Part shown: positions 18,486 to 60,927 of the stretch, piece by piece
Layout: each line of letters starts with the position of its first letter
How positions within the stretch are numbered: the stretch's first letter is position 1
DNA from: Paenibacillus polymyxa
GTDB taxonomy: Bacteria; Bacillota; Bacilli; Paenibacillales; Paenibacillaceae
Reading direction: 5' to 3'
Length of the DNA: 64,000 nt
Assembly: GCF_001719045.1 (NCBI RefSeq)
Contig: NZ_CP015423.1
Span: forward strand, 3,166,501 to 3,230,500
Notes under the pieces: generated by a model
What the model saw: only the letters and a program-made list of their open reading frames with translations
Told to the model about the DNA's origin: nothing
Database searches by the model: none
Program-made: the position numbers and the translations under genes

Positions 18486-18884
18486 TTACAGCCCGAACAC
18501 ACTTTTAGCAACGACCTGTGTCAATTCTGCCTTATGGGCTTGGTATTGCTCAGGTGTAATGCTCTTATTGGCCAGTCGTTGATCCAACTGCTCCGTTAAC
18601 TGAGCTACCTGTAAATCAACAACAGCCTGTGCGTCCTGTTTATTGGATTGTGCAATATCTGCCAAGGTTTGACCGTTATATAACGCATCATACAATTGCT
18701 CATCCGAGGATGCGCCCAGTGTTTTCAAAAGTTCATCATCCTTGGAAGCTTCATTATCCTGTACCTGAGGGGCTCTCTCTGGAGCCAGTGTAGCAGCATT
18801 AGCCCGACTTCCCCAAGTAGAAGACTGCCCAATAGATAACGCCAGCAACAGTGTACAGATGATCATAATTCGTTTTCGATTCAT
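18486..18884 (-). CDS. Small secreted protein, paralogue of the protein at 25746-26318
   Basis: A 132-residue protein with a clear signal peptide (basic start, LLLALSIG core, cleavage near ANAAT). The mature part has a Glu/Asp-rich linker and then a compact helical module: ALYNGQTLADIAQSNKQDAQ followed by a Q/A-rich helix and KSITPEQYQAHKAEL. The same module order (gapped repeat LKAGKSLATIAKAQGVSVNS, then GKITATEYNQRV) is found in the larger secreted protein 7 kb away, so the two are related. I do not recognise a named family. It is monocistronic and converges on pyk. Confidence 0.75.
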   Translation of the reverse strand: MNRKRIMIICTLLLALSIGQSSTWGSRANAATLAPERAPQVQDNEASKDDELLKTLGASSDEQLYDALYNGQTLADIAQSNKQDAQAVVDLQVAQLTEQLDQRLANKSITPEQYQAHKAELTQVVAKSVFGL

Positions 18885-19306
18885 GAGTGTAAATCTCCTT
18901 TGTGTTCATTCAATTTCTGACAAGGTGGAGCCTTATATGGATATCCAACGGGAGTAATGTTTATGCCTTTAGCCGATCCGGCTTATGTAGTTACCAGATT
19001 CTAATATACATCATACACACCCAATCTTAGCGCCAGCTTAATACTCGTTTAAAATAAACTAAAAGAGGAGGATATAAACAGGTAAAACCAAAAAAAATTC
19101 ACGGATACGAATAATGGATGTGACTTACCCTTTGGATTCTGCCCTTTTCTTTGACCACATTGTTCGTATCCCATGAATACAGAGCATCTGCTCAGACTTA
19201 CTTTCGCTGTGCTGGATTGGCGGCTTTTTAACTTTGTTAGGGGAGAGGCGGATATGAAAAAAACCTCCTTCACAAAAGTGAAAGAGGTTTTAGACATCTA
19301 CAACCA
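18885..19306. other. Intergenic region of 422 bases
   Basis: This stretch holds the promoter area of the secreted-protein gene at its left end and the terminator of the DUF805 gene at its right end. I see no convincing gene. One minus-strand frame of 82 codons runs through the terminator hairpin and has no family resemblance. Confidence 0.6.
19256..19291 (-). terminator. Rho-independent terminator of the DUF805 gene
   Basis: On the minus strand, AAAACCTC-TTCAC pairs with GTGAA-GAGGTTTT, with one bulge each side, and is followed by a run of seven T residues. Confidence 0.85.
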
Positions 19307-25745: not shown

Positions 25746-26318
25746 CTATTTCTGCTTAGCAGAGGCTTTAGCTGCATTGGTTTTAGCAGGAGCCTTGGCT
25801 GCATCTCCTTGAGTAGGAGCTTTACCTGCATCCGCTTTACCGCCATCTACTGGTGGTTTGGATGGTTTCACGCCATTCACCATATCTGTCATCATTTGCT
25901 TCAGATTAGAGACACGTTGGTTATATTCAGTTGCCGTAATCTTGCCGTTTTGTTTTTCCGTAGCCAGTTTCACTTTCATATCTGAAACCATTACATCAAT
26001 AACGGAATTTACGCTCACGCCCTGTGCTTTGGCGATCGTAGCAAGGGATTTACCTGCTTTCAACTGTGTATCCAACTGACTGGAGGATAATTTCAATAAT
26101 TTCAGGAGAGCTTTGTTCTCAGCATAGTTACCTCCTGCGATTTTAGGGCCATTAGCATCGCCGGGATTCCCCTTAGGTGCCTGTGCTTTGTCTGCGATGG
26201 GAGCCTTCTCAGGTGTAGTTGAAGCAGCATGGGCTGCGCTTGTGGAGTACAGTGCCCCGCCTCCTAAAAATGCCAAGGCCATCGTTCCAGCCAAAATTGC
26301 TTTCTTGGTGCTCTTCAT
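25746..26318 (-). CDS. Secreted Ala/Lys/Pro-rich protein, paralogue of the protein at 18486-18884
   Basis: A protein of about 190 residues with a typical signal peptide (KSTKKAILAGTMALAFLGGG, cleavage near AAHAAS). The mature part has a Pro/Lys/Ala/Gly linker, then the helical module KALLKLLKLSSSQLDTQLKA / GKSLATIAKAQGVSVNS / GKITATEYNQRVSNLKQMM, and a low-complexity A-K-P tail that could bind the cell wall. The module is shared with the smaller secreted protein near 18.5 kb. No named family is recognised. ATG 26318 is nine bases from AGGTGG; ATG 26324 is also possible. Upstream, four CTGA-type hexamers at 11-bp intervals suggest control by an OmpR-type regulator. Confidence 0.75.
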   Translation of the reverse strand: MKSTKKAILAGTMALAFLGGGALYSTSAAHAASTTPEKAPIADKAQAPKGNPGDANGPKIAGGNYAENKALLKLLKLSSSQLDTQLKAGKSLATIAKAQGVSVNSVIDVMVSDMKVKLATEKQNGKITATEYNQRVSNLKQMMTDMVNGVKPSKPPVDGGKADAGKAPTQGDAAKAPAKTNAAKASAKQK

Positions 26319-26363
26319 CTTCATTTTCCACCTTTCGGTTGTGGTTTGTTTGGTACGTGATAC

Positions 26364-26418
26364 ATCATAAGGGATCAACTTGAATGCTATCTGAGCGCAA
26401 GCTGAGCATTTACTGAAT
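26364..26418 (-). promoter_or_regulatory. 11-bp-spaced direct repeats, candidate response-regulator box
   Basis: On the plus strand the hexamers TTGAAT (26380), CTGAGC (26391), CTGAGC (26402) and CTGAAT (26413) start exactly 11 bases apart. A possible -10 box TATGAT of the minus-strand secreted-protein gene lies at 26364-26369, so the repeats cover its -35 region. The same array occurs at 53876-53903 next to a two-component system. Confidence 0.6.
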
Positions 26419-48995: not shown

Positions 48996-49877
48996 CTATT
49001 TTATCATTGAAGCAAGCGCCCACTCGCGCATCATGGAGTCAAGCATCGGACGCAAATCTTCGCGTTGCATACCCATGTGGAGCACGGCTTCCAGATATCC
49101 AGCTTTATCTCCAATATCATAACGTGTGCCTTCCAGCTCTAATGCGAGCAGTTGGTTCTGCAATGCTACTTGATGAAGGGCATCTGTCAATTGGTATTCA
49201 CCGCCCGCTCCAGTGGACAGGTTTTCCAATATAGAGAAAATGGAAGGCTCCAACACATACCGACCAATGACTGCCTGCCGCGAAGGAGCCTCTGCCGAAG
49301 AAGGTTTTTCAACAAGCCCACCGACTTCGTGAATGAGACCGTTCTGGTGAGTGGAGTCAATAATGCCGTATTTACTTACATCCTGTTCTTCCACTGTGCG
49401 CACGCCGACCACTTGCTTGCCAGTCGCTTCGTAAACATCCATCATTTGACGAATCGCCGGGGTGGAGGAATTCATAATATCATCGCCCAGCAACACGGCG
49501 AAGGGCTCATCGCCAATGAACTGACGAGCGCAGCTGACCGCATGTCCCAGGCCGAGGGGTTCTTTTTGACGGATATAGTGAATGACTGCTTTACCCCCGA
49601 TGCTTTGAACTTCACGTAGGAGATCGTATTTACCTTTGCTCTCCAGTACCTGCTCCAACTCCACAGACTTGTCAAAATGATCCTCGATGGCTTTTTTATT
49701 ACGCCCCGTTACGATAATGATGCTCTCAATTCCGGACTTGATGGCTTCTTCTACGATATATTGAATAGCCGGCTTGTCTACGATTGGAAGCATCTCTTTC
49801 GGTAAAGCTTTCGTAGCTGGTAGAAAACGGGTTCCTAATCCGGCGGCTGGAATAACAGCTTTTGTAATTTTTCTCAT
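48996..49877 (-). CDS. galU: UTP-glucose-1-phosphate uridylyltransferase
   Basis: A 293-residue nucleotidyltransferase that makes UDP-glucose. The N-terminal KAVIPAAGLGTRFLPATKAL is the nucleotide-binding signature, with the active-site Lys in PKEMLPIVDKPAIQY; RQKEPLGLGHAV and FAVLLGDDI follow. It overlaps the upstream gtrA stop by four bases and is the last gene of a GT39-GT2-gtrA-galU operon. It thus likely supplies the sugar nucleotide used by the GT2 enzyme. Bacteria often have several copies; this one appears dedicated to surface glycosylation. Confidence 0.96.
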   Translation of the reverse strand: MRKITKAVIPAAGLGTRFLPATKALPKEMLPIVDKPAIQYIVEEAIKSGIESIIIVTGRNKKAIEDHFDKSVELEQVLESKGKYDLLREVQSIGGKAVIHYIRQKEPLGLGHAVSCARQFIGDEPFAVLLGDDIMNSSTPAIRQMMDVYEATGKQVVGVRTVEEQDVSKYGIIDSTHQNGLIHEVGGLVEKPSSAEAPSRQAVIGRYVLEPSIFSILENLSTGAGGEYQLTDALHQVALQNQLLALELEGTRYDIGDKAGYLEAVLHMGMQREDLRPMLDSMMREWALASMIK

Positions 49878-50296
49878 AGAAACTCACTTTCCTTTCGTGA
49901 TGGGGAACCGAATACCCAGTATCGGCTCCCGATATAATTGATGATCATTCCGGCTGCGGTCGCGATCAGCTTGCCTAAAGCAAGTGGCAGCTCGGTTCCA
50001 GTGTGAAGCACTTGCAGTAATAAGGAGGTTATCCCCAAAACGATCAGGTTGATGACGATAAATTTAGGTAATTGACGCTTATTAGTATTGTTTGATAGTT
50101 GTTTGTTGAATGTCCATTTGCTGTTCAAAATATAACTGTTGGCTGTGCCGCAGCTGTACGAAATGATCTGCGCCACAATAACCGGTACCCCGACCCAAGC
50201 CAGCAGCATAAAAATGATATAATCTACACCCGTATTCACCAGACCTACGATACCAAATCGGATCATAGGAAGCAGCTGGGCCATGCGACTTTTCAT
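49874..50296 (-). CDS. GtrA family flippase-like membrane protein
   Basis: A 140-residue protein with four membrane spans and the GtrA signature: FGIVGLVNTGVDYIIFMLL at the first span, SYSCGTANSYILNSKWTF in the second, and a final NYIGSRYWVFG. GtrA proteins are thought to flip undecaprenyl-phosphate-linked sugars across the membrane. It lies three bases after the GT2 gene and overlaps galU by four bases, so it works in the same three-component system. Confidence 0.94.
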   Translation of the reverse strand: MKSRMAQLLPMIRFGIVGLVNTGVDYIIFMLLAWVGVPVIVAQIISYSCGTANSYILNSKWTFNKQLSNNTNKRQLPKFIVINLIVLGITSLLLQVLHTGTELPLALGKLIATAAGMIINYIGSRYWVFGSPSRKESEFL

Positions 50297-50299
50297 GGT

Positions 50300-51391
50300 T
50301 TAGGCTCCATGACCGGATTTGGGTCCGGTATATACCGCACTGTTGCCGCGCACTGTGCGTCCTGCCGAAATCAGACTGTCACGAGCTCCTTGCATGTACA
50401 GGGATTCACGGGGTTCAGGGGCTTTCATAGCATGTGTCGGACCGTTTTCGTATTGTCCACCCAGATGCTCACGGACAATGTAAAGCGGGCGTGCTTTGGT
50501 TTCGTCATAAATCCGTCCAACATATTCACCCATAATACCGAGAATGATCAGGATCAACCCGTCGAAGATCAGGCTGATGCTAATCATAGACGACCAGCCC
50601 TTCATCACATAGAAATCGGTGAAAAAGTTGAGAAACAATACGTACATCAGATACAGGAAGCCGGACATGGATAGAAGTGCGCCGATATACCCTGCCAGCT
50701 TAAGCGGTTTAATCGAAAAGGATGTGATTCCGTCCAGACTGAGCTTGATCATTCGTTTCAACGGATACTTGGTTTCGCCTGCGAGCCGCTCGTCGCGCTC
50801 ATATTCTACAGCAGTTTGTTTGAACCCGATCCAGCTGACCAGTCCACGAACGAATCGGTTATTTTCCGGCAGCCGTTTCAATTCATCTATAACCTTGCGA
50901 TCCATTAAGCGGAAATCTCCGGTATCGACCGGGATATTAATATCCGTTGATGCTTTAAGTACACGGTAGAAGAGGCTGGCAGACCATTTCTTGAAGCGAG
51001 TTTCACCATTGCGTTTGAGCCGTTTGGCGTAGACTACTTCATAGCCTTCCTTCCACTTGTTAGCCATCTCAACAATCAGTTCCGGCGGGTCCTGGAGGTC
51101 GGCGTCAATGACGACGACCGCCTCTCCCACTGCATAATCCATCCCGGCGGTAATCGCTAGCTGATGACCAAAATTGCGAGAGAAATCAATCAATACAATG
51201 GTGTCATCTCTGAGACTGAATTCCTTGATCAATTGGACGCTGCGGTCCGAACTTCCATCATTTACGAAGATCAGCTCGTAGGGCTCACCCATTGAGCCCA
51301 TGACTTGTTTCAGCCTCCGATAGGTTTCCGTAATAACGGCTTCCTCGTTGTACATCGGAATAACTATGGAATAACGGATAGGTTCACTCAT
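50300..51391 (-). CDS. Glycosyltransferase family 2 (polyprenyl-phosphate sugar synthase)
   Basis: A 363-residue enzyme. The GT2 domain starts with YSIVIPMYNEEAVITETYRR, holds the nucleotide-binding ELIFVNDGSSDRSVQLIKE and the catalytic VVVIDADLQDPPELIVEM (the D-x-D type motif), and SGDF-like VDTGDFRLMDRKVIDEL. Two C-terminal membrane spans (about 230-300) are typical of DPM1/GtrB/YkcC-like enzymes that load a sugar onto undecaprenyl phosphate. The C-terminal tail of about 60 residues beyond the last span is longer than usual. With galU beside it, UDP-glucose is the likely donor. Confidence 0.94.
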   Translation of the reverse strand: MSEPIRYSIVIPMYNEEAVITETYRRLKQVMGSMGEPYELIFVNDGSSDRSVQLIKEFSLRDDTIVLIDFSRNFGHQLAITAGMDYAVGEAVVVIDADLQDPPELIVEMANKWKEGYEVVYAKRLKRNGETRFKKWSASLFYRVLKASTDINIPVDTGDFRLMDRKVIDELKRLPENNRFVRGLVSWIGFKQTAVEYERDERLAGETKYPLKRMIKLSLDGITSFSIKPLKLAGYIGALLSMSGFLYLMYVLFLNFFTDFYVMKGWSSMISISLIFDGLILIILGIMGEYVGRIYDETKARPLYIVREHLGGQYENGPTHAMKAPEPRESLYMQGARDSLISAGRTVRGNSAVYTGPKSGHGA

Positions 51392-51408: not shown

Positions 51409-53733
51409 TTATAATGTGATTTCGTATAAAGTACCGCTTCCGCCAAGTTCGTCTCCGCCAGGGCCACCTTGACCATCCTGGGCGTTTGCATTGCTGTTTG
51501 TGGTGTCGCTTCCGCTCTCGGTTGCTTTAACGTCTGTACTTGTTTCGCCTGTTGTTGTTTTCCATTCATCTGTAGGGATCACTTTGCCGTGTTCTTTGAT
51601 CCATGCAGTGACTTCAGAGTTACCTCCGTCCGGTCCGCCGCCTCCACCAGAAATCATGAAGTACTTCACTTGGCCGCTTTCGACCAGCGCCTTGATTTTA
51701 TCGACGGTATAGACTGGATCGGAAGATACAAAACCATTCATAATAATTACTTTTTGTCCGGCCTCGACCAGGTAAGGAGCAGCCGTTGAATAATTACTTG
51801 CTGCGAAAAGGTAGGTTTCACCTGTGTTGTTTTTTTGCAAATAGCTCAACGTTTTTTGATCTAAACCTTGGCTGCCGTTTGGTCCCCCCATCCCTCTGGA
51901 GCGGGTAGAAGATTTTTGTTCCGTGTCTGTACTTGTTTGTGTGCTTGAAGTATTTCCATCAGGGCCGGAATTCTCTGTATTATTGGTCTGGTTATTCGTT
52001 TGAGTTCCCTCGGCTTGTTGTCCATTAGCGCTCTGGCCTCTATTGCGATCATTGCCACCCGGCATTCCCCCACCACCGCCGCCAAATTGAGTCGGTCCGG
52101 CTTGTGGAATCATGCTGTTCCCCCCGTAGACGATCGGTGTCAATGCCCAGTACACAGGGCCGATAAACATAGCGAGTACACTTGCAATGATGGCGAATCT
52201 TGTGAACTTCTCAGATTTCATTCGTGCTACTACCAATAGCGCCGTGCCGATGATCCCTAGGGTCAATACCGCGATGGACCAGCCGCTGCCAATGGTATCG
52301 TTGTAATTTTGCAAAACAAACCAGCTAAATACCGAGGTTGCCAATACTGCGGCGGGTAACAGCCAGGAGAGCCAGTTGGAACGCTCACGATACTGCTTCC
52401 ACAATTCTACGAATCCTGCTCCAAAGAGCGCTGCAATTGGTGGTGCGAGCATAATCAGGTAATAATGATGAAAGAATCCTGCTACGCTGAAAAATGCAGC
52501 TACGGGAATCAACCAGGCCAGCCAGAAGATGACCTCTTTGTGCTTTTGTGTGATATTACGACGTCGAATGCTTGCAAGCAGACCGATGGAAGCAATCAAT
52601 GCGAATGGAAGCAGCCAGCTGGCTTGACCTGACAAGGAAGATTGGAACAACCGCAAAGGTCCTTTTTCGCCAGTGCCGAACATGCCACCACCGGAATTTC
52701 CTCCCGGTCCACCGCCTGGTCCACCCTGGCCACCTTGCCAATCTCCAGGACCACTTTGTCCGTTACCGCCGAATCCGCCTGTTGCCATGTTGTTGGCACC
52801 AGAGTCATCCGTAGTGGTAGTGCTGTCCGATGATGTAGTCGTCTGAGCTTGATCTGTGTTCGTATTGCTGCTATTCGTTGTAGCGATATTGTCCCGATCT
52901 GTGCGTTCACCGCCACGATTGCCACCTGTACCCTGATCTCCTGTCAGACGGGACAGGCCGTTATAACCAAAGGCCAAATTCAGCACAGAATTGGTACCGC
53001 TACTCCCCATATAAGGGCGTTCATCTGTCGGAGTGGAGTCCACTACGACTGCCCAGGAGAGCGATACGATCAGGAGGACAACTGCTGATCCTGCCAGTGT
53101 TACTGCTTTTCGCTTCCAGTTAAACTTGGAAGCCAGCAGATAGAACAAACCCAGTGCGGGAACGATCATATAGGCTTGCAACATTTTTTCGTTAAAGGCG
53201 ATGCCTACGACTGCGAAAGCAGCAAGGATCAGCCCGGTTTTGCTATTTCTAATGCCTCTGAACAATAGCCATGTTGCGAGCAACAGTGTGAAGACCAACA
53301 TAGCGTCGATGTTATTCGTGCGGCTGACCGCTACGGCTATCGGTGTCGTTGCCATGGCGAAGGCGGCCAATCGTGCGGCCATCGTACCGAAGCTCGGTTT
53401 GACGAGCAAGTAAACGAGCAAGACCGATCCGACCTGAGCTAGCGCCTGTGGCAAGATAACGCTCCATCCGTGAAGCCCAAATATATAGGCGCTCAGTGTC
53501 TGAATCCAGAACACCACAGGCGGTTTGTCTACCGTTACTGATCCGGCAGAATCAAGTGAGGCGAAAAAGAAGTTGTGAAAGCTCTGTAGCATGCTTGCTA
53601 CGGCCGTCGTATAGTAGGTGTTTACATATTTGTCTTGCCAGATGTTGTATCCGTTCAAAAATGCGGATATCAGCATAATGATGATCAGGGGGATGTCCGC
53701 CCTGGTCTTAAACCATTTCTTAATCATGTTCAT
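51409..53733 (-). CDS. GT39-type membrane glycosyltransferase (YkcB-like) with low-complexity loops
   Basis: A 774-residue polytopic protein of the dolichyl-phosphate-mannose / ArnT-like (GT-C) group. The N-terminal loop after span 1 holds YYTTAVASMLQSFHNFFFAS and the conserved D-K-P-P motif (VTVDKPPVVFW). About ten spans follow. Three regions are unusual: a Gly/Asn/Ser/Thr-rich stretch near residues 255-350, another near 545-625, and a Gly/Asp/Ser/Asn-rich tail. They lie on the outer side by topology. The partner genes (GT2, gtrA, galU) show that it takes a sugar from a polyprenyl carrier outside the membrane and puts it on a cell-surface acceptor. It is divergent from an OmpR-type two-component system. 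Confidence 0.92.
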   Translation of the reverse strand: MNMIKKWFKTRADIPLIIIMLISAFLNGYNIWQDKYVNTYYTTAVASMLQSFHNFFFASLDSAGSVTVDKPPVVFWIQTLSAYIFGLHGWSVILPQALAQVGSVLLVYLLVKPSFGTMAARLAAFAMATTPIAVAVSRTNNIDAMLVFTLLLATWLLFRGIRNSKTGLILAAFAVVGIAFNEKMLQAYMIVPALGLFYLLASKFNWKRKAVTLAGSAVVLLIVSLSWAVVVDSTPTDERPYMGSSGTNSVLNLAFGYNGLSRLTGDQGTGGNRGGERTDRDNIATTNSSNTNTDQAQTTTSSDSTTTTDDSGANNMATGGFGGNGQSGPGDWQGGQGGPGGGPGGNSGGGMFGTGEKGPLRLFQSSLSGQASWLLPFALIASIGLLASIRRRNITQKHKEVIFWLAWLIPVAAFFSVAGFFHHYYLIMLAPPIAALFGAGFVELWKQYRERSNWLSWLLPAAVLATSVFSWFVLQNYNDTIGSGWSIAVLTLGIIGTALLVVARMKSEKFTRFAIIASVLAMFIGPVYWALTPIVYGGNSMIPQAGPTQFGGGGGGMPGGNDRNRGQSANGQQAEGTQTNNQTNNTENSGPDGNTSSTQTSTDTEQKSSTRSRGMGGPNGSQGLDQKTLSYLQKNNTGETYLFAASNYSTAAPYLVEAGQKVIIMNGFVSSDPVYTVDKIKALVESGQVKYFMISGGGGGPDGGNSEVTAWIKEHGKVIPTDEWKTTTGETSTDVKATESGSDTTNSNANAQDGQGGPGGDELGGSGTLYEITL

Positions 53734-53845: not shown

Positions 53846-53910
53846 ATTATCATGCCATACGTACCTTAATGGGTTCTGAGCGCTCCCTGAACGTTAGCTG
53901 AAAGCTGAGC
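53846..53910. promoter_or_regulatory. 11-bp-spaced direct repeats between glycosylation operon and two-component genes
   Basis: CTGAGC (53876), CTGAAC (53887) and CTGAAA (53898) start exactly 11 bases apart, with one more CTGAGC at 53905. A possible -10 box GATAAT of the minus-strand operon lies at 53846-53851. On the plus strand TTGCGA (53924-53929) and TAGATA (53946-53951) may be the promoter of the two-component genes. OmpR-type regulators bind such repeats. Confidence 0.6.
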
Positions 53911-54015
53911 AGAGGTGCTTTTTTTGCGACAGGATTCAGGTATATTAGATACAGGTAAAAAATGAACCGACTTTTTTATGAGAAAAATGCGGCAACATGA
54001 AAGGGAAGATTAATA

Positions 54016-54702
54016 ATGAATCCAATACACGGAGTTAAAATTATGCTGGCAGATGATGAGCCTCATATTTTGCAATTTTTAGAGCTTGGACTGATTAATG
54101 AAGGATATGAAGTTAGAACCGCCGAGAACGGGAGTGAAGCGCTCGATTTGGCAAGAGAGTTTCGTCCGCATGTAGCGGTGCTGGATGTGATGATGCCGGA
54201 AATGAACGGTTTTGAGGTGTGCCAAAGTCTCAAGGAGACGGAGGATAACATCGCGGTTATTATGCTGACCGCCAAGGATGATGTAGACGATCGGGTAAAG
54301 GGTTTGAAAATCGGCGCGGATGATTATGTCGTGAAGCCCTTCAGTTTTAATGAGTTGCTGGCTCGCATTGAAGCGCGCTTGCGCAATCAGTTCCCCGATC
54401 TGCTGGGCGAAGTGATTCACGGACCCTTTCAAGTGGATGATCGACGGAAGGAAATTAGTTATCAGAGTCAGGTGCTGGAGCTGTCGCCTACCGAATATGA
54501 ACTATTGAAGTTTCTGGTGCTAAACCACGGGATTGTGCTGAGTAAAAGTCGTATACTGGACCGGGTATGGGGGTACGATTTTGGGGGCGAGGATAATATT
54601 GTTGAAGTGTACATCCGCTCCTTACGTGAAAAACTCAAAGACAAGGAGCACCGGGTCATTCGTACGCTGCGCGGTGTGGGATACCGGGTGGATCTGCTAT
54701 GA
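54016..54702 (+). CDS. OmpR family response regulator
   Basis: A 228-residue DNA-binding regulator. The receiver domain has the acidic pair in LADDEPHILQF, the phospho-acceptor Asp57 in VAVLDVMMPEMNG, and the Thr/Lys switch in MLTAKDD and YVVKPFSF. The C-terminal winged helix contains LSPTEYELLKFLVLNHGIVL and VEVYIRSLREKLKD with the final TLRGVGYRVDLL. It overlaps the sensor kinase gene by four bases. The gene context (YkcB/YkcC-like enzymes) recalls the YkoG-type regulators of Bacillus subtilis. The CTGARY repeats upstream are its likely binding site. Confidence 0.96.
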   Translation: MNPIHGVKIMLADDEPHILQFLELGLINEGYEVRTAENGSEALDLAREFRPHVAVLDVMMPEMNGFEVCQSLKETEDNIAVIMLTAKDDVDDRVKGLKIGADDYVVKPFSFNELLARIEARLRNQFPDLLGEVIHGPFQVDDRRKEISYQSQVLELSPTEYELLKFLVLNHGIVLSKSRILDRVWGYDFGGEDNIVEVYIRSLREKLKDKEHRVIRTLRGVGYRVDLL

Positions 54703-56189
54703 AGGCGGGAGGAAAAAGTCGGAGAAAATATGCGCTCCGTTCTCTCCGGTCCCAACTTTTAGCCAGAACGTTACTCATTTTGGCTTTGCTGCTCGTATTG
54801 ATTGGTTTTCTACAATATTTTCTGATGAAAGATTTTCTGTATCGTAGTCGGGCAGAAGCTATGGATACGCAGCTGAATTCAATTCCTGCCGATTTATTGA
54901 TTAAGGATTCACAGGAGCAGAGTAGGGTAACCGCTCCCCAAGAACAAACTAATCGGAGGAATAATCGACCGGGGCCGTTTTTGTTCTGGCCGGATATGTC
55001 GCTCGCTTCTATAGATACAGACGGTACCTTCCAGAGCTTGTCCAACGAAAACGGACTTAAGCCGCCACGTCTCACCACTGAGCAATATCAAGCGATGCAG
55101 CAGAGCAAACGTATGCGTCACGGCTATCAATTAATCAGGGATGCTCAGGGGAAAGAGCAACTGGTTGTATTCCGTCCGCTCGGTCCACCTGACCGTTCGT
55201 CCGGTTTACTTCAAATGGGCGTATCCACGAATTCTATGCAAGAGCAGTTGATTAACCAGCTCCGCACCTTTATTTTATTGTCATTGATTGCGCTTGCGAT
55301 TGGGTTGGCGCTTATGCTTCCTGTGCTGCGACGCACATTGGTGCCCCTTTCCAGGATGGTCGAGGCAGTCAAACGTATTGATGCGGGCAATCTGGCCGAG
55401 CGCTTTGACGCAGAGCAGGGGCAGTATGAGGTGGATCGTTTGGCAGTTTCATTTAACGGGATGCTGGAACGGTTGGAGCATTCGTTTGCTGCCGAACGGG
55501 AATTGCAGATGCAGATGAGACGATTTATTGCGGATGCTTCCCATGAACTGCGCACCCCGCTCACATCTATTCACGGTTTCTTGGAAGTGCTGCTTCGTGG
55601 AGCAGCATCTAATCCGAAGCAGCTTCAATCGGCACTAGAAAGTATGTACGGTGAATCCAAGCGGATGAATAAACTGGTCTCTGATTTACTATTGTTGGCT
55701 AAGCTGGACCGAACACCGGAGTTGAAACTGGAGGACATACCACTAGATGCGTTGCTGTTGGAAATGAAACCGCAGCTCCTTATGCTGGCAGGTACACGTA
55801 AGGTAGTTTTTGATATGACGGCAGGTATACGGGTGTTGGCAGAGGGGGATAAAATCAAGCAGGTAGTGCTCAACCTGTTTCATAATGCTGTTCAGCATAC
55901 TGATATGGAAAGAGGTGTGATCCAGGTAAACCTGTCTGCGGGTAAGAAGTTGGTGGATATCCAAATTCGTGATAACGGACCAGGCATGAGTAAAGAACAG
56001 CTGGAGCGGATATTTGAGCGTTTTTATCGTGGAGATGAATCGCGTACACGTAGCTCAGGCGGGGCGGGCCTTGGTCTGGCCATTACACAGTCTATCGTGG
56101 AAGCACACGGCGGGAACATTACGGCTGAAAGCACACCGGGAACGGGAAGTGTATTCAAAGTAACGCTACCTTTAGCGGGAACAGTATAG
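54699..56189 (+). CDS. Sensor histidine kinase
   Basis: A 496-residue membrane kinase. An N-terminal span (LLARTLLILALLLVLIGFLQ) is followed by an extracytoplasmic sensor of about 145 residues (rich in Gln, Arg and Pro in the middle), then a second span near residues 190-210, a HAMP domain, the phospho-acceptor His282 in FIADASHELRTPLTSIHG, and the ATPase domain with VVLNLFHNAVQHT (N box), IRDNGPGMSKEQLERIFERF (G1/F) and GGAGLGLAITQSIV (G2). The length and layout are standard. It is translationally coupled to the response regulator. The ligand is unknown; the sensor domain shows no recognisable fold by eye. Confidence 0.95.
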   Translation: MKAGGKSRRKYALRSLRSQLLARTLLILALLLVLIGFLQYFLMKDFLYRSRAEAMDTQLNSIPADLLIKDSQEQSRVTAPQEQTNRRNNRPGPFLFWPDMSLASIDTDGTFQSLSNENGLKPPRLTTEQYQAMQQSKRMRHGYQLIRDAQGKEQLVVFRPLGPPDRSSGLLQMGVSTNSMQEQLINQLRTFILLSLIALAIGLALMLPVLRRTLVPLSRMVEAVKRIDAGNLAERFDAEQGQYEVDRLAVSFNGMLERLEHSFAAERELQMQMRRFIADASHELRTPLTSIHGFLEVLLRGAASNPKQLQSALESMYGESKRMNKLVSDLLLLAKLDRTPELKLEDIPLDALLLEMKPQLLMLAGTRKVVFDMTAGIRVLAEGDKIKQVVLNLFHNAVQHTDMERGVIQVNLSAGKKLVDIQIRDNGPGMSKEQLERIFERFYRGDESRTRSSGGAGLGLAITQSIVEAHGGNITAESTPGTGSVFKVTLPLAGTV

Positions 56190-56272: not shown

Positions 56273-59200
56273 TTAGTTAATCAGCGAAGCTTTTTGTAAA
56301 AGTACATGTAGCACCTTGGCGGATGCCTCACGGGTTGTAGGTGCATTCGGCTGGAAGTAGGAGGAGCCTTTGATCGCTTCTCCGTTGATAATACCTGCTG
56401 CACTTACTTTTTCAATACTGTCCTTGGCATAGCCTGCAAAGGATGAAGCATCATGGTACGGTGTGCGTGCAGGGCCATCGGCTGTAGCTTTGATTTGAAG
56501 CAGGTCTACAGCTTTACCCAGCACGACAGCAATTTCTTGACGACTGATATTAGCGTTCGGATCAAACTTGTCGCTGCTGCGACCCGTAATCAAACCAGCT
56601 TCATAAGCGGCTGCTACATCGCCGGAGTACCAGCTACCTGCCGGGATATCACTGAATGGTGCAGCAGTACCTGGTGTCAGGCCGAGTGCTCGGGTTACCA
56701 GGGCTGCAAATTCTGCACGCGTCACGTTCTTCTTCGGTGAGAAAGTCGTGTCAGTCGTGCCGTTAATCAGCAACTTGTTCGCCAGTGATTGAATTTCCGA
56801 TTGGGCATACGACGATGAAATATCTTCAAAGCTAACGGGACGTGTCGCCGCTGCATACGTCGAGAAGCCCGGACGGCTTACCTTGACGACGGTAGATCCA
56901 TCAGCCTGCTTGGTGAAGACGGATGGAACGGGATAGACATTTCCATTTGCCGTGTAGAGTACACCGGCTGTATTGGAATCAATTTGACCAGGTACGGTAA
57001 AGGATCTGCTAATAAACTGTCCTGGAGCAACTTTGAGCGATTGACTCTTGCCACCAGTGACAACATTAGCTTCAAACCCTACCGGGGTGCCGATCACATT
57101 GGAGCCTTTCAGTTTACTTGTAAAAGTGTTGCTCGCCTCTGCCTGGCTGCTGATTACCACTTCAATGCCTGCACCAGCAGGAACATTTTTCAGAGCGGAT
57201 ACTGGCAAAGCCAGAGAAGAACCTGTATTGCTTACAATCAAGCTGCTTCCTGCTGAAGCCTTGCCCAGCGTTACCAGTTGTGTGGAAGTGAGCGATGCCT
57301 TCGTCGTTTGGCCTGCTTGGCTAGTAGCCGACAGTACAATAGCTGTCGGGCTGGAACCTGCTGCTGTCACGGCAGCCTGCAAATCTGCATCGGTTACTGT
57401 CAGCGACTGTACATTATTGTTCAATGCAACGGCTGTAGTGATAGTTTTAACAGCCTGTCCTTGTTTCACAACGCTTTGAAGTGAAGGTGCAGATGTAGGG
57501 ACAGGAGTGGATGTGTTCGTTGTAGCAGAAGGTGTAGTATTGCTTCTACCGCCACCTCCACCACCTCCGCCTCCACCACTACCGCTAGATGCGGCGCTAT
57601 TATCCACGCGAATAGCTTTAGTGGCGGTGAAGAGTTTAGGGCCGTCGGCATTGCGTACGACTTCGCCGTCTTTATTCAGTTCTGGAGAACTGACTTCCAG
57701 CTTGTATACGCCGTCCTTCAAATGCTGAATCACGGGCTGACCATTAGCATCCAGAACAGGTTTTCCCTTGTCATCTAATTCGACGTAACTTCCGTCAATA
57801 TCCTTGAAGGAATATGCACCTTGTTTGAGGCGAGCATTGTCACCTTGTTCCTTGGAGGTCGTAATTCCATCGATCAGACCGATTAATTTATCATCTACGC
57901 CGTATACATAAAGCGCGATCTGGTTGGTTTTATCTGTGGTCAGGCGGAATGTCAAATCTGTTGAACGTTGAGCACCTGTACGACTCGGATAAATAATCGG
58001 GTTGGTGACACTCAAGTCCTGCAAGCCGAAGCCAGTTGTAGGATTTTCTTTGCCCACATGAACGACGAACGGCAGATGAAGTGTTGGCAGTCCGGCGCTT
58101 TTCAGAATAACTTCCCCTTCATATACACCTGTGGCTGCACCCGAATTTGGTTGTACAGACAGGAAGAACGGTTGCGATTTACCCGGTTCTGCCGAGATTG
58201 CTCCATTCGCGCCCACACCTTGCAACTGAACGGCAATGTTGCTCACGTCAGGTGTAGCAATCGGTTGAGTTGGATCAGAAGTTACATTATCATGTAAAAC
58301 GGTGCTGGCTTCATATTGCACAGTGTTAGCCGACAAGTTTTTGAGTTGAAGCTGAATCTGCTTCGCATCACTACCAGGTCGTAACACCCCGAAGCTGGCG
58401 GAAGGATTATAATTCACAACCTCCTGCCGATTAAAGTTTTTGTCGAGAATCGTAATCTTTTCGACGGTTTCCAGCAGGGCTGGCGTCTGAATCGCATTAG
58501 CGATGTTTACAAGGCCTGCACCTTGGGAATACACATCATATTGGATTTTATCCTCATCAAAGAGTGTAATCGAAGTGTTGGCGAGCGCAGCGCGGATATC
58601 AAACGGTGTCCAGTTCGGATGCTGCTGCTTCAGCAGTACAGCAAGTCCAGCCACATGTGGAGACGCCATACTTGTACCGTTGCTACGTTTGTAAGCCTGC
58701 TCATACGATGCATCTGGATAGAACTTGGCGAAAGCAGGGTAGGTTGATAAAATGCCAACCCCCGGTGCGCTCACGTCTGGTTTGATACTGAGCAGTTCAT
58801 CTCCGTTCGGTCCGCGGGAGCTGAAATCGGCCATGGTATTACCTGCATTATCTGTGCGAATATAGTCTGCTCCAAAGGAAACTGAGAACTTTTCTCCAGC
58901 GTTGTCTACGATTTGTTTAGCCAGTGCACGGCCTTCCTTACCTTTCATGTCAAAGGTTGGAATAAAGTCAAAGCTGTCACCCAAATTGGAATTAACGTAG
59001 TCATCGCGACCTGAAATACTTTCCCCTAAATCAGCTTTGGTGATGTCGCCCGCTTTCGTATTCCCATTAAAAACGATAACAGCCTTCGCGCCGTTTTTTT
59101 TCGCATTTGTGATTTTATCCACGAATGCCAAGTTGCCGCGTGAAACGAGGACGATTTTTCCTGCTAAGTCTTTCCCTTCAAAATCATCAGGTTGTCCCAG

Positions 59201-60565
59201 ATTCGCATATACGAGCTCATAAGGGGCAGTTCCCAAAATGGAGGAAAAGTCTTCTCTGCCTGTCTCCCAGCCCATCAAATTAAAATCATAATGTGCATAA
59301 GCATCATTAGTTACGGTCTTTTTCAATTCACCGTTAGCCTCCCAATAGGTGTCACGGGTGACCGAAGCTGTACCCGAGAAGCTTTTGCTCGGCGAAGTAG
59401 CTGCACCGACGGAAATCGCCAGCTGTGATGTTGCGGGAGAACCCATGGAATAAAAATAAGGGCCATCCTGTGCCGCATTACCATTCGCTATGACCGCGAC
59501 TACGCCGGAAAGTACAGCATTATTAATAGCAATGGAATCCGGGGAGTTCGGGTCCTTTTCGGAATCCGAGCCCAGCGACAGGTTAATGACGTTCATACCA
59601 TCTTTGACAGCGCGTTCAATGCCATCAATGACCTGTGCGGAGGAACCGGAGGAACGACCCGTCTTGGTATTGCGTCCAAGCACTTTATACACGTATAAGT
59701 CCGATTTATAGGAAATACCCTTTTGTACAATATCTGAGGATTTATTTGCGGCTTTACCGGCAATCGTGCCAGAGACGTGAGTACCATGTGTCGTTCCGCT
59801 AAAACCTGTGCCGTATGGGTCATTCTCTTTTTCAAGGAACGGTTCCTCGTAAGGATCGTTGTCCTGTTCAAAAGAGTCATATCCGCCTTTATAGGCTTCT
59901 TTCAAGTCCGGATGCTCATAATCGATACCGGTATCAATAACCCCGACCTTGATTCCCTCGCCATTCAATCCTTTGGCCCAGGCTTCAGGAACACCAATCT
60001 GGTCCAGCGGTGCGTTATCATAAGTGGCTTCACTGGCTGTAAGTGTTGGCGGGTCCTGTACGGGGATGGAATAATACGTTTTGTTTTCATGAATGGATTT
60101 TACGCCTGGCAGTTTAGCCAGTGCTGGAATCTTATTGGCTGGCAATGTGACCTCCAAGCCGTTAAGCACTGTGTTGTACTGGTAATTCACCTGGAGAGAA
60201 ATACCATGCTCAGCGGCTTGGTCCACGAACGTAGTTTGCTCGTTGGCAATCGCGGATTCCGCTTTTTGCTCAGATTGAGCTGTGAAAGCTTGGACGCCTG
60301 AACGTGCCGCATATTTGTCTACGGCTAAGGGCTCACCATCAAGCTGTACGATGACTCTGACCTGGCGGGAAGAGTCTGTACTTAGCTCTGGCGAAATGAA
60401 GGCCGGAGCCGCCTCAATAGTCAATGCTTGCTGAGCTTCCAAAAATGAGTTGAGTTGTAGATCTGCGGTAGCAGCAGAACTGACAGACGGCAGAGACAAG
60501 CTTACCGTCAAGGCAAGAGCGAGTGATACGACAGGTATTTTTTTCAAAATGATCGGCTTTTTCAA
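56273..60565 (-). CDS. Large secreted subtilisin-like serine protease with SLH domains
   Basis: A 1430-residue cell-surface protease. From TTG 60565 the product has an N-terminal signal peptide (VVSLALALTVSLSLPSVSSA); GAGGG lies six bases upstream, and a TTG 18 bases earlier is also in frame. An I9-type propeptide comes next, then the S8 domain with Asp in GVIDTGIDYEHPDL (near 211), His in TTHGTHVSGTIAG (near 260) and Ser in NGTSMASPHVAGLAV (near 635). A PA domain is inserted before the Ser. Further beta-rich domains follow, then a Gly8-Gly9 run linked to a Ser/Thr/Pro stretch near 1030, and three SLH repeats at the end (FEDISSSYAQSEI, FSDIPAGSWYSGDV, YHDASSFAGYAKDS) that bind wall polymers. 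Confidence 0.96.
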   Translation of the reverse strand: MKKPIILKKIPVVSLALALTVSLSLPSVSSAATADLQLNSFLEAQQALTIEAAPAFISPELSTDSSRQVRVIVQLDGEPLAVDKYAARSGVQAFTAQSEQKAESAIANEQTTFVDQAAEHGISLQVNYQYNTVLNGLEVTLPANKIPALAKLPGVKSIHENKTYYSIPVQDPPTLTASEATYDNAPLDQIGVPEAWAKGLNGEGIKVGVIDTGIDYEHPDLKEAYKGGYDSFEQDNDPYEEPFLEKENDPYGTGFSGTTHGTHVSGTIAGKAANKSSDIVQKGISYKSDLYVYKVLGRNTKTGRSSGSSAQVIDGIERAVKDGMNVINLSLGSDSEKDPNSPDSIAINNAVLSGVVAVIANGNAAQDGPYFYSMGSPATSQLAISVGAATSPSKSFSGTASVTRDTYWEANGELKKTVTNDAYAHYDFNLMGWETGREDFSSILGTAPYELVYANLGQPDDFEGKDLAGKIVLVSRGNLAFVDKITNAKKNGAKAVIVFNGNTKAGDITKADLGESISGRDDYVNSNLGDSFDFIPTFDMKGKEGRALAKQIVDNAGEKFSVSFGADYIRTDNAGNTMADFSSRGPNGDELLSIKPDVSAPGVGILSTYPAFAKFYPDASYEQAYKRSNGTSMASPHVAGLAVLLKQQHPNWTPFDIRAALANTSITLFDEDKIQYDVYSQGAGLVNIANAIQTPALLETVEKITILDKNFNRQEVVNYNPSASFGVLRPGSDAKQIQLQLKNLSANTVQYEASTVLHDNVTSDPTQPIATPDVSNIAVQLQGVGANGAISAEPGKSQPFFLSVQPNSGAATGVYEGEVILKSAGLPTLHLPFVVHVGKENPTTGFGLQDLSVTNPIIYPSRTGAQRSTDLTFRLTTDKTNQIALYVYGVDDKLIGLIDGITTSKEQGDNARLKQGAYSFKDIDGSYVELDDKGKPVLDANGQPVIQHLKDGVYKLEVSSPELNKDGEVVRNADGPKLFTATKAIRVDNSAASSGSGGGGGGGGGGRSNTTPSATTNTSTPVPTSAPSLQSVVKQGQAVKTITTAVALNNNVQSLTVTDADLQAAVTAAGSSPTAIVLSATSQAGQTTKASLTSTQLVTLGKASAGSSLIVSNTGSSLALPVSALKNVPAGAGIEVVISSQAEASNTFTSKLKGSNVIGTPVGFEANVVTGGKSQSLKVAPGQFISRSFTVPGQIDSNTAGVLYTANGNVYPVPSVFTKQADGSTVVKVSRPGFSTYAAATRPVSFEDISSSYAQSEIQSLANKLLINGTTDTTFSPKKNVTRAEFAALVTRALGLTPGTAAPFSDIPAGSWYSGDVAAAYEAGLITGRSSDKFDPNANISRQEIAVVLGKAVDLLQIKATADGPARTPYHDASSFAGYAKDSIEKVSAAGIINGEAIKGSSYFQPNAPTTREASAKVLHVLLQKASLIN

Positions 60566-60927
60566 AGATTTCCCTCTTTTCAATCAAAATATGATATGTC
60601 TACATACTAGGATTTGAAGCCACTGCCGTTGTTCTCACGCCTCCCTTAATATCTAAAATAATAGAATTGACCACTGGTGACTAACTTGCCAGTTTTGAGG
60701 CATATCTTACCATATTGGTGGGATATATTACTATATGTTTTTTATATTTTTAGAAAAAATAAGGGTAACATTACATGTAGATTCCATGGAAATGTTATGA
60801 ATTTACTAGATTATTTTTGAAAACAATCAAAGGGGAATGGGAGAATGCGAGATTTAATGATATAATCTGCATTGGAATTGTTGAGGTTTCACAATCATGT
60901 AAAATGCCTAAGGCAAAGGAGTCGATT
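60566..60927. other. Intergenic region of 362 bases with extended -10 promoter
   Basis: This is the divergent region between the subtilase and pyrophosphatase genes. TGATATAAT at 60858-60866 is an extended -10 box about 62 bases before the pyrophosphatase start; no good -35 box accompanies it. In-frame codons from 60817 to 60927 show no protein resemblance and appear to be leader. No subtilase promoter stands out. Confidence 0.5.

Follow-up and report, generated by a model that had tools for sequence, protein, structure and literature searches.

An 11-bp-periodic half-site array as the candidate operator of an OmpR/PhoB-family two-component system beside a surface glycosylation operon in Paenibacillus polymyxa

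Analysis of a 64,000-nucleotide stretch of the Paenibacillus polymyxa genome (the window) revealed two arrays of four RYTCAG-like half-sites. Judged from sequence, both are predicted operators of an OmpR/PhoB-family response regulator (gene at 54016–54702, plus strand), which would activate the adjoining promoters; the probability of this reading was put at about 0.85. We infer both which protein binds and that it activates rather than represses. The first-pass annotation had proposed that this regulator controls a secreted-protein gene and the glycosylation operon. Conservation, rarity and clustering of the arrays beside the regulator speak for that proposal, but the sites go beyond two targets: two more places were found elsewhere in the own genome and, within the window, a third and weaker site.

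The first candidate operator and promoter (26364–26418, minus strand) reads ATTCAG (26418–26413), GCTCAG (26407–26402), GCTCAG (26396–26391) and ATTCAA (26385–26380), followed by N10 and the -10 box TATGAT (26369–26364). The second (53849–53903, minus strand) reads TTTCAG (53903–53898), GTTCAG (53892–53887), GCTCAG (53881–53876) and ATTAAG (53870–53865), followed by N10 and CATGAT (53854–53849). The gene-sense consensus common to both is four RYTCAG-like copies with an 11-bp period, and the exact spacing described in the first-pass annotation was borne out in both arrays. Its hexamer, CTGARY, fitted less evenly. On the plus strand, the first array carries TTGAAT (26380), CTGAGC (26391), CTGAGC (26402) and CTGAAT (26413), three exact units and one with a single mismatch at 26380. 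The second carries CTTAAT (53865), CTGAGC (53876), CTGAAC (53887) and CTGAAA (53898); the units at 53876 and 53887 are exact, the last base is off at 53898, and the weaker copy at 53865 was missing from the earlier list, which gave three copies only. The suggested proximity to the -35 region was upheld at both loci: 10 nt separate the end of the promoter-proximal half-site from the -10 box, which would place a bound regulator at the -35 position. The hexamers 17 nt upstream of the -10 boxes, read by eye, are AGATAG and AGAACC; since these are unlike TTGACA, an activator seems to be needed. All 14 loci of close relatives that were read, own locus included (L051–L064), match the first array at 18–19 of 20 positions before the orthologous gene.

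The arrays were rare in both the window and the genome. Scanning the window with the three-copy pattern at up to three mismatches gave seven matches, against a shuffled mean of 1.16, and none of 100 shuffles reached seven; two matches outside the arrays (5780 and 42491, three mismatches each) are presumably due to chance. In the own genome (5.76 Mb), the pattern at up to one mismatch gave seven matches falling into four places, and the reversed-pattern control gave none, in line with the non-random distribution that had been set beforehand as an expectation. The third place is a four-copy array upstream of a gene at L009 (C1:4389954–4389992), and the fourth is an array upstream of a membrane-protein gene with a GT87 match (L008, C1:2590693; Pfam GT87 E 7.5e-8). 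Orientation to the downstream gene was identical at all four. A looser three-copy pattern gave six exact matches in the own genome, all within these places, and 18 further matches at one mismatch, against three control matches in total. A pattern of two copies plus the -10 box matched 28 times, against eight controls, with the first array as the sole exact match. Four GTTCAGAATYGG sites were among the weaker own-genome pattern matches. The own genome was scanned with patterns and not with the matrix used below, and weak sites like 19064–19010 would escape such a scan.

The proposed binder consists of a receiver domain (PF00072, 112.5 bits) and a C-terminal winged helix (Trans_reg_C, PF00486, 91.3 bits), the layout of the OmpR/PhoB family. 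The partner histidine kinase (54699–56189, plus strand) showed HAMP, HisKA and HATPase domain matches. Of 75 genus genomes, 59 were found to contain the regulator (E ≤ 1e-70), and these same 59 also contain the kinase (E ≤ 1e-60); each lies at one place, with the kinase match of G005 split in two pieces. Comparison of the regulator with NCBIfam equivalogs reached no cut-off among the best 25 of 106 families, and PhoB (203 bits against a cut-off of 296.2), MtrA (196.6 against 300), YycF/WalR (171 against 340) and CseB (165.5 against 350) were rejected. The solved structures nearest by sequence were those of Mycobacterium tuberculosis PhoP (9ji3, 3r0j; E about 3e-56). Of 80 regulator orthologues, 79 show the recognition-helix motif NIVEVY[IV]RSLR, either exactly or with one residue changed. 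The closest named records to the window kinase, among the best 80 of 413, belonged to P. ottowii (92%), P. brasilensis (91%) and P. terrae (90%). The kinase in a record titled Paenibacillus polymyxa ISL-58 (L216) is just 55% identical to that of the window, and the species label may be wrong. The kinase gene adjoins a gene for a 1436-aa subtilase with SLH domains (56273–60583), a candidate surface protein for the glycosylation operon.

Conservation at orthologous loci and clustering beside the regulator, both set beforehand as tests, were confirmed. A four-copy array matching 17–19 of 20 consensus positions was located within 350 bp before the regulator in all 59 regulator-bearing genus genomes, which are phylogenetically non-independent, as in all genome counts here; L110–L113 were left out of this count as duplicates of L035–L038. 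Among the named loci (the best 80 of 413, fetched by kinase alignment), 71 showed an array with at least 17 of 20 matching positions no more than 400 bp upstream of the regulator; none of 2000 shuffled sequences reached this. Array-bearing loci include Neobacillus (L184), Desulfosporosinus (L188, L208), Thermoactinomyces (L233) and a Pelotomaculum MAG (L230). In most of the 43 listed regulator-directed arrays with at least 18 matching positions, N10 leads to GATAAT, TATGAT, CATAAT or a similar hexamer, and the distance to the start codon is mostly 24–56 bp; the -10 register is poor at L203, L227, L233, L240 and L245. Direct half-sites repeated every 11 bp, with about 10 nt between the last of them and a -10 box, give these sites the form of a class II operator, some of them being poor examples. 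Nine of the 80 named loci were exceptions. In L194, L211 and L220 the array lies just 3' of the kinase and is followed by a VTC-like gene as well as a second membrane-protein gene, and in L231 and L235 it lies directly before the PMT gene, which starts about 6 kb away from the start of the regulator. L190 (20.3) and L199 (16.0) gave borderline matrix scores, and no array was found in L193 and L212 (short contig) by the matrix scan of the named loci.

In the window, the site corresponding to the regulator-directed site of relatives is degenerate (TTTGCG-N5-ATTCAG; 53923–53955, plus strand). In 44 of the 59 genomes this position has a pair of perfect TTCAG copies spaced 11 bp apart, and in 14 close relatives (own included) it has one perfect copy, while L107 is without a clear copy; as the site is weak in the window's species group, autoregulation there is uncertain. 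The exact three-copy CTGAR-N6 pattern gave 51 matches (36 places once overlapping registers were merged) against six reversed-control matches; since many arrays depart from the exact pattern, it is present in only 21 of the 75 genus genomes. The 59 regulator-bearing genomes accounted for 49 matches (34 places) against one control, and the 16 regulator-lacking genomes for two against five controls; one of the 49 matches (G017) falls within a gene and is probably due to chance. The strict CTGARY pattern was present in 12 of 75 genus genomes, always as the exported-protein array, with two reversed-control matches.

At the family level, the exact four-copy pattern was detected in 93 of 295 genomes, with six reversed-control matches in three genomes among the matches listed; some of the matches are plain tandem repeats (e.g. 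G119, G167, G172, G296, G311). Downstream of 30 loci among the matches listed, this regulator was identified in 15 by BLAST and in two by eye (L281, L289), an HlyD/MacA-like adaptor in seven and a VTC-like gene in two, which leaves four loci without assignment. The adaptors behind a four-copy array (L290, L292, L293, L295, L301, L305, L306) belong to another genus of the family, and were called by Pfam for L293 alone and by eye for the others. VTC-like genes with a membrane-protein gene follow the array in other Paenibacillaceae (L194, L211, L220, L277, L280), called by Pfam for L277 alone and by eye for the others.

A 55-column matrix (four units, N10 and -10 box) was trained on 57 distinct regulator-adjacent sites in named loci outside the window's species group (L168–L173 left out), after removal of one duplicate training site; 17-position sites and secreted-gene arrays were also left out of training. 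In the window, the highest scores were obtained at 26418 (45.4), 53903 (44.2) and 19064 (16.9), all on the minus strand, and the maximum of 100 Markov windows was 12.9. The other own-genome places scored 42.0 (L009) and 31.5 (L008). In G014, an array scoring 36.9 lies upstream of an alkaline phosphatase-like gene called by eye (L122).

The second array precedes a minus-strand operon that begins with a PMT_2/YkcB-like membrane glycosyltransferase (51409–53733; PF13231, PF24878). This gene is followed by a GT2 glycosyltransferase (50300–51391; PF00535), which is a probable polyprenyl-phosphate sugar transferase, a GtrA-family membrane protein (49874–50296; PF04138), which is a probable lipid-sugar flippase, and the UTP-glucose-1-phosphate uridylyltransferase GalU (48996–49877; TIGR01099, 379.7 bits against a cut-off of 326.8). 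PMT_2, GT2 and GtrA together form the gene set of PMT/GtrA-type lipid-linked glycosylation, and suggest lipid-linked sugar transfer onto a surface polymer or protein. The PMT (E ≤ 1e-60) was found in 57 of 59 regulator-bearing genomes against one of 16 others (G044, 46% identity). In the regulator-lacking G044, an array scoring 21.5 also stands before a Gly/Pro-rich lipoprotein gene (L132); together with the distant PMT, this hints at a related system. The two regulator-bearing genomes in which the PMT is missing keep the array, which faces a methyltransferase-like gene in G074 and an exported transpeptidase-like gene in G047, both called by eye. The PMT orthologue of G013 matched in two overlapping pieces (G013:C1:5227894–5230197), which suggests a frameshift or sequencing error. 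A PMT of at least 40% identity was present in 33 of the 80 named loci, weaker matches having been dropped, and PMT_2, GT2 and GtrA were all listed for 30 of the 33. An array (matrix score at least 20, at most 450 bp upstream, right direction) precedes the PMT in 32 of the 33, a count that is partly circular because matrix training drew on other-species arrays near the regulator with at least 18 of 20 positions, among them PMT-directed arrays. The PMT without an array is that of L209, where the match is partial. The PMT has its own array even in L203, L208 and L233, where PMT and regulator genes are not divergently arranged.

The first array lies before a gene for a small exported protein of 192 aa (25746–26324, minus strand), whose signal peptide was recognized by eye and which had no Pfam or NCBIfam match. 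A 132-aa protein with a signal-peptide-like start, also read by eye (18486–18884, minus strand), is its paralogue (28% identity, E 5e-10 in a single comparison). It is preceded by the weaker third site, TTTTAG-N5-TTTAAA-N5-ATTAAG-N5-GCTAAG-N10-TATGAT (19010–19064, minus strand). Eleven of the 12 relatives fetched retain this site, with scores of 11.9–19.0; L312 yielded no orthologue. Homologues of the exported protein could be found in 34 of 75 genus genomes, and 30 loci were fetched for scoring, G014, G015 and G016 being left out and G018 handled separately. Best matrix scores were 36–46 in 14 close relatives (own included), 9–35 (9.2–34.5) in 10 other regulator-bearing genomes and 2–17 in six regulator-lacking genomes. 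The last group scored lower than the 10 distant regulator-bearing genomes (Mann-Whitney p 0.002, phylogeny-uncorrected, best score anywhere in the locus of about 3.5 kb), with regulator-lacking G022 (16.5) within the range of the distant regulator-bearing relatives. Distant orthologues carry degenerate periodic copies at 14–16 of 20 positions, even in regulator-lacking genomes, which leaves room for a second regulator at the exported-protein sites. In G018, a close relative judging by the 82–91% DNA identity of the flanks, three array copies are kept, and a deletion runs from the promoter into the exported-protein gene, of which a remnant follows. Searches of this genome at the E thresholds used yielded neither the regulator nor the kinase nor a PMT; as the assembly is in about 350 contigs, their absence is likely but not certain.

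A separate two-copy motif, GTTCAG-AATYG-GTTCAG, occurs in the own genome at C1:1135356, 3333150, 3906660 and 5261092 (loci examined, L163–L166 and L248–L276). It was present in 41 of 75 genus genomes with no reversed-control match, usually with a TATAnT-like box about 10 nt further on. An exported-looking protein is encoded downstream in about 22 of 29 loci by eye, several with SLH-like repeats, and three loci are without an ORF. The four own-genome loci were negative with the array matrix. The motif was detected in 39 of 59 regulator-bearing and also in two of 16 regulator-lacking genomes (G004, G053), and it is therefore probably the site of another OmpR-type regulator.

These observations bear on an alternative in which control is divided: the neighbouring regulator would act on its own gene and the glycosylation operon alone, and the exported-protein promoters would answer to a paralogous OmpR-family regulator with a similar motif, TTNAG. 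The TTAAG-type site before the 132-aa paralogue agrees with such a division, as do the mixtures of TTTAC, TTAAG, TTCAG and TTCAT at distant exported-protein orthologues, regulator-lacking genomes included, and the matrix-negative two-copy motif before other exported genes. Nevertheless, the array at 26364–26418 scores like the PMT array under a matrix derived from regulator-adjacent sites, exported-gene scores are lower where the regulator is lacking, and regulator loss in G018 accompanies decay of the exported-protein gene. A division of labour between two regulators was thus considered improbable.

Slightly less improbable, although still unlikely, is that the regulator binds the arrays yet represses by covering the -35 region. 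Repression is within reach of OmpR-family proteins and the operator overlaps the -35 position; however, the exact N10 before the -10 box matches the class II activator layout of PhoB, and AGATAG and AGAACC are unlike TTGACA. An origin by chance was rejected on the absence of comparable matches in the 100 window shuffles, the reversed control and the 2000 shuffles, and on the simulated matrix maximum of 12.9. A tandem-repeat artefact without regulatory role, as might be thought from the plain repeats among the family-level matches, was also rejected because spacers vary within arrays and across species, while half-sites and period persist. With the co-orientation at four own-genome places added, an origin by chance or as such an artefact is extremely improbable.

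Activation by the adjacent regulator, the preferred reading, resembles known switches. The class II activator layout of PhoB has 11-bp direct repeats and N10 to the -10 box, and pho-box half-sites are CTGTCA or TTAACA (PhoB and Bacillus PhoP). The arrays share with such operators the head-to-tail order, the 11-bp period, the overlap with -35 and the distance of about 10 nt to -10, but differ in the half-site RYTCAG and in their targets, glycosylation and small exported-protein genes. The M. tuberculosis PhoP box, TCACAGC-N4-TCACAGC, has the same period and CAGC in common with the arrays, and differs in the 5' part of the half-site and in the gene set. Streptococcal CiaR recognizes TTTAAG-N5-TTTAAG. 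CiaR and PmrA/BasR boxes are hexamer-N5-hexamer like the arrays, and the window's third site holds ATTAAG and GCTAAG; compared by motif alone, the arrays differ from the CiaR box in that position 4 is mostly C and not A. YkcB/YkcC- and GtrA/PMT-type surface glycosylation systems also combine PMT_2, GT2 and GtrA, but the window operon is paired with a dedicated two-component system and a candidate operator. A Streptomyces CutR-type site was rejected, the arrays being RYTCAG-N5 and the CutR site being TAWATAAA (PMC12802291).

According to the proposed mechanism, phosphorylation by the adjacent kinase would enable the regulator to activate its target set. Two regulator dimers would bind the four head-to-tail half-sites on one helix face, occupy the -35 position and recruit RNA polymerase, as PhoB does at the pho box. 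The predicted targets are the PMT-GT2-GtrA-GalU operon, the small exported protein at 25746–26324 and perhaps its paralogue at 18486–18884, as well as the GT87-like membrane protein (L008) and the L009 gene elsewhere in the genome; in most relatives, the regulator itself would be a target. More tentatively, and rather doubtfully in this full extent, the arrays may mark an old, mostly autoregulated Firmicutes envelope regulon defined by four RYTCAG copies, in which one two-component system would coordinate PMT-GT2-GtrA glycosylation, VTC operons, HlyD/MacA-like export and small exported proteins; the latter may feed back on the kinase, which would itself be a sensor of glycosylation or of envelope state. 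The kind of switch is already known; the operator sequence and the regulon look new within a limited literature search, although this is not established.

With the arrays as predicted operators, a widely conserved, uncharacterised two-component system gains a precisely defined candidate operator together with a list of candidate targets. The small exported proteins would be tied to surface glycosylation through this candidate operator, and the role of the two-component system in the surface glycosylation of Paenibacillus and its relatives becomes directly testable.
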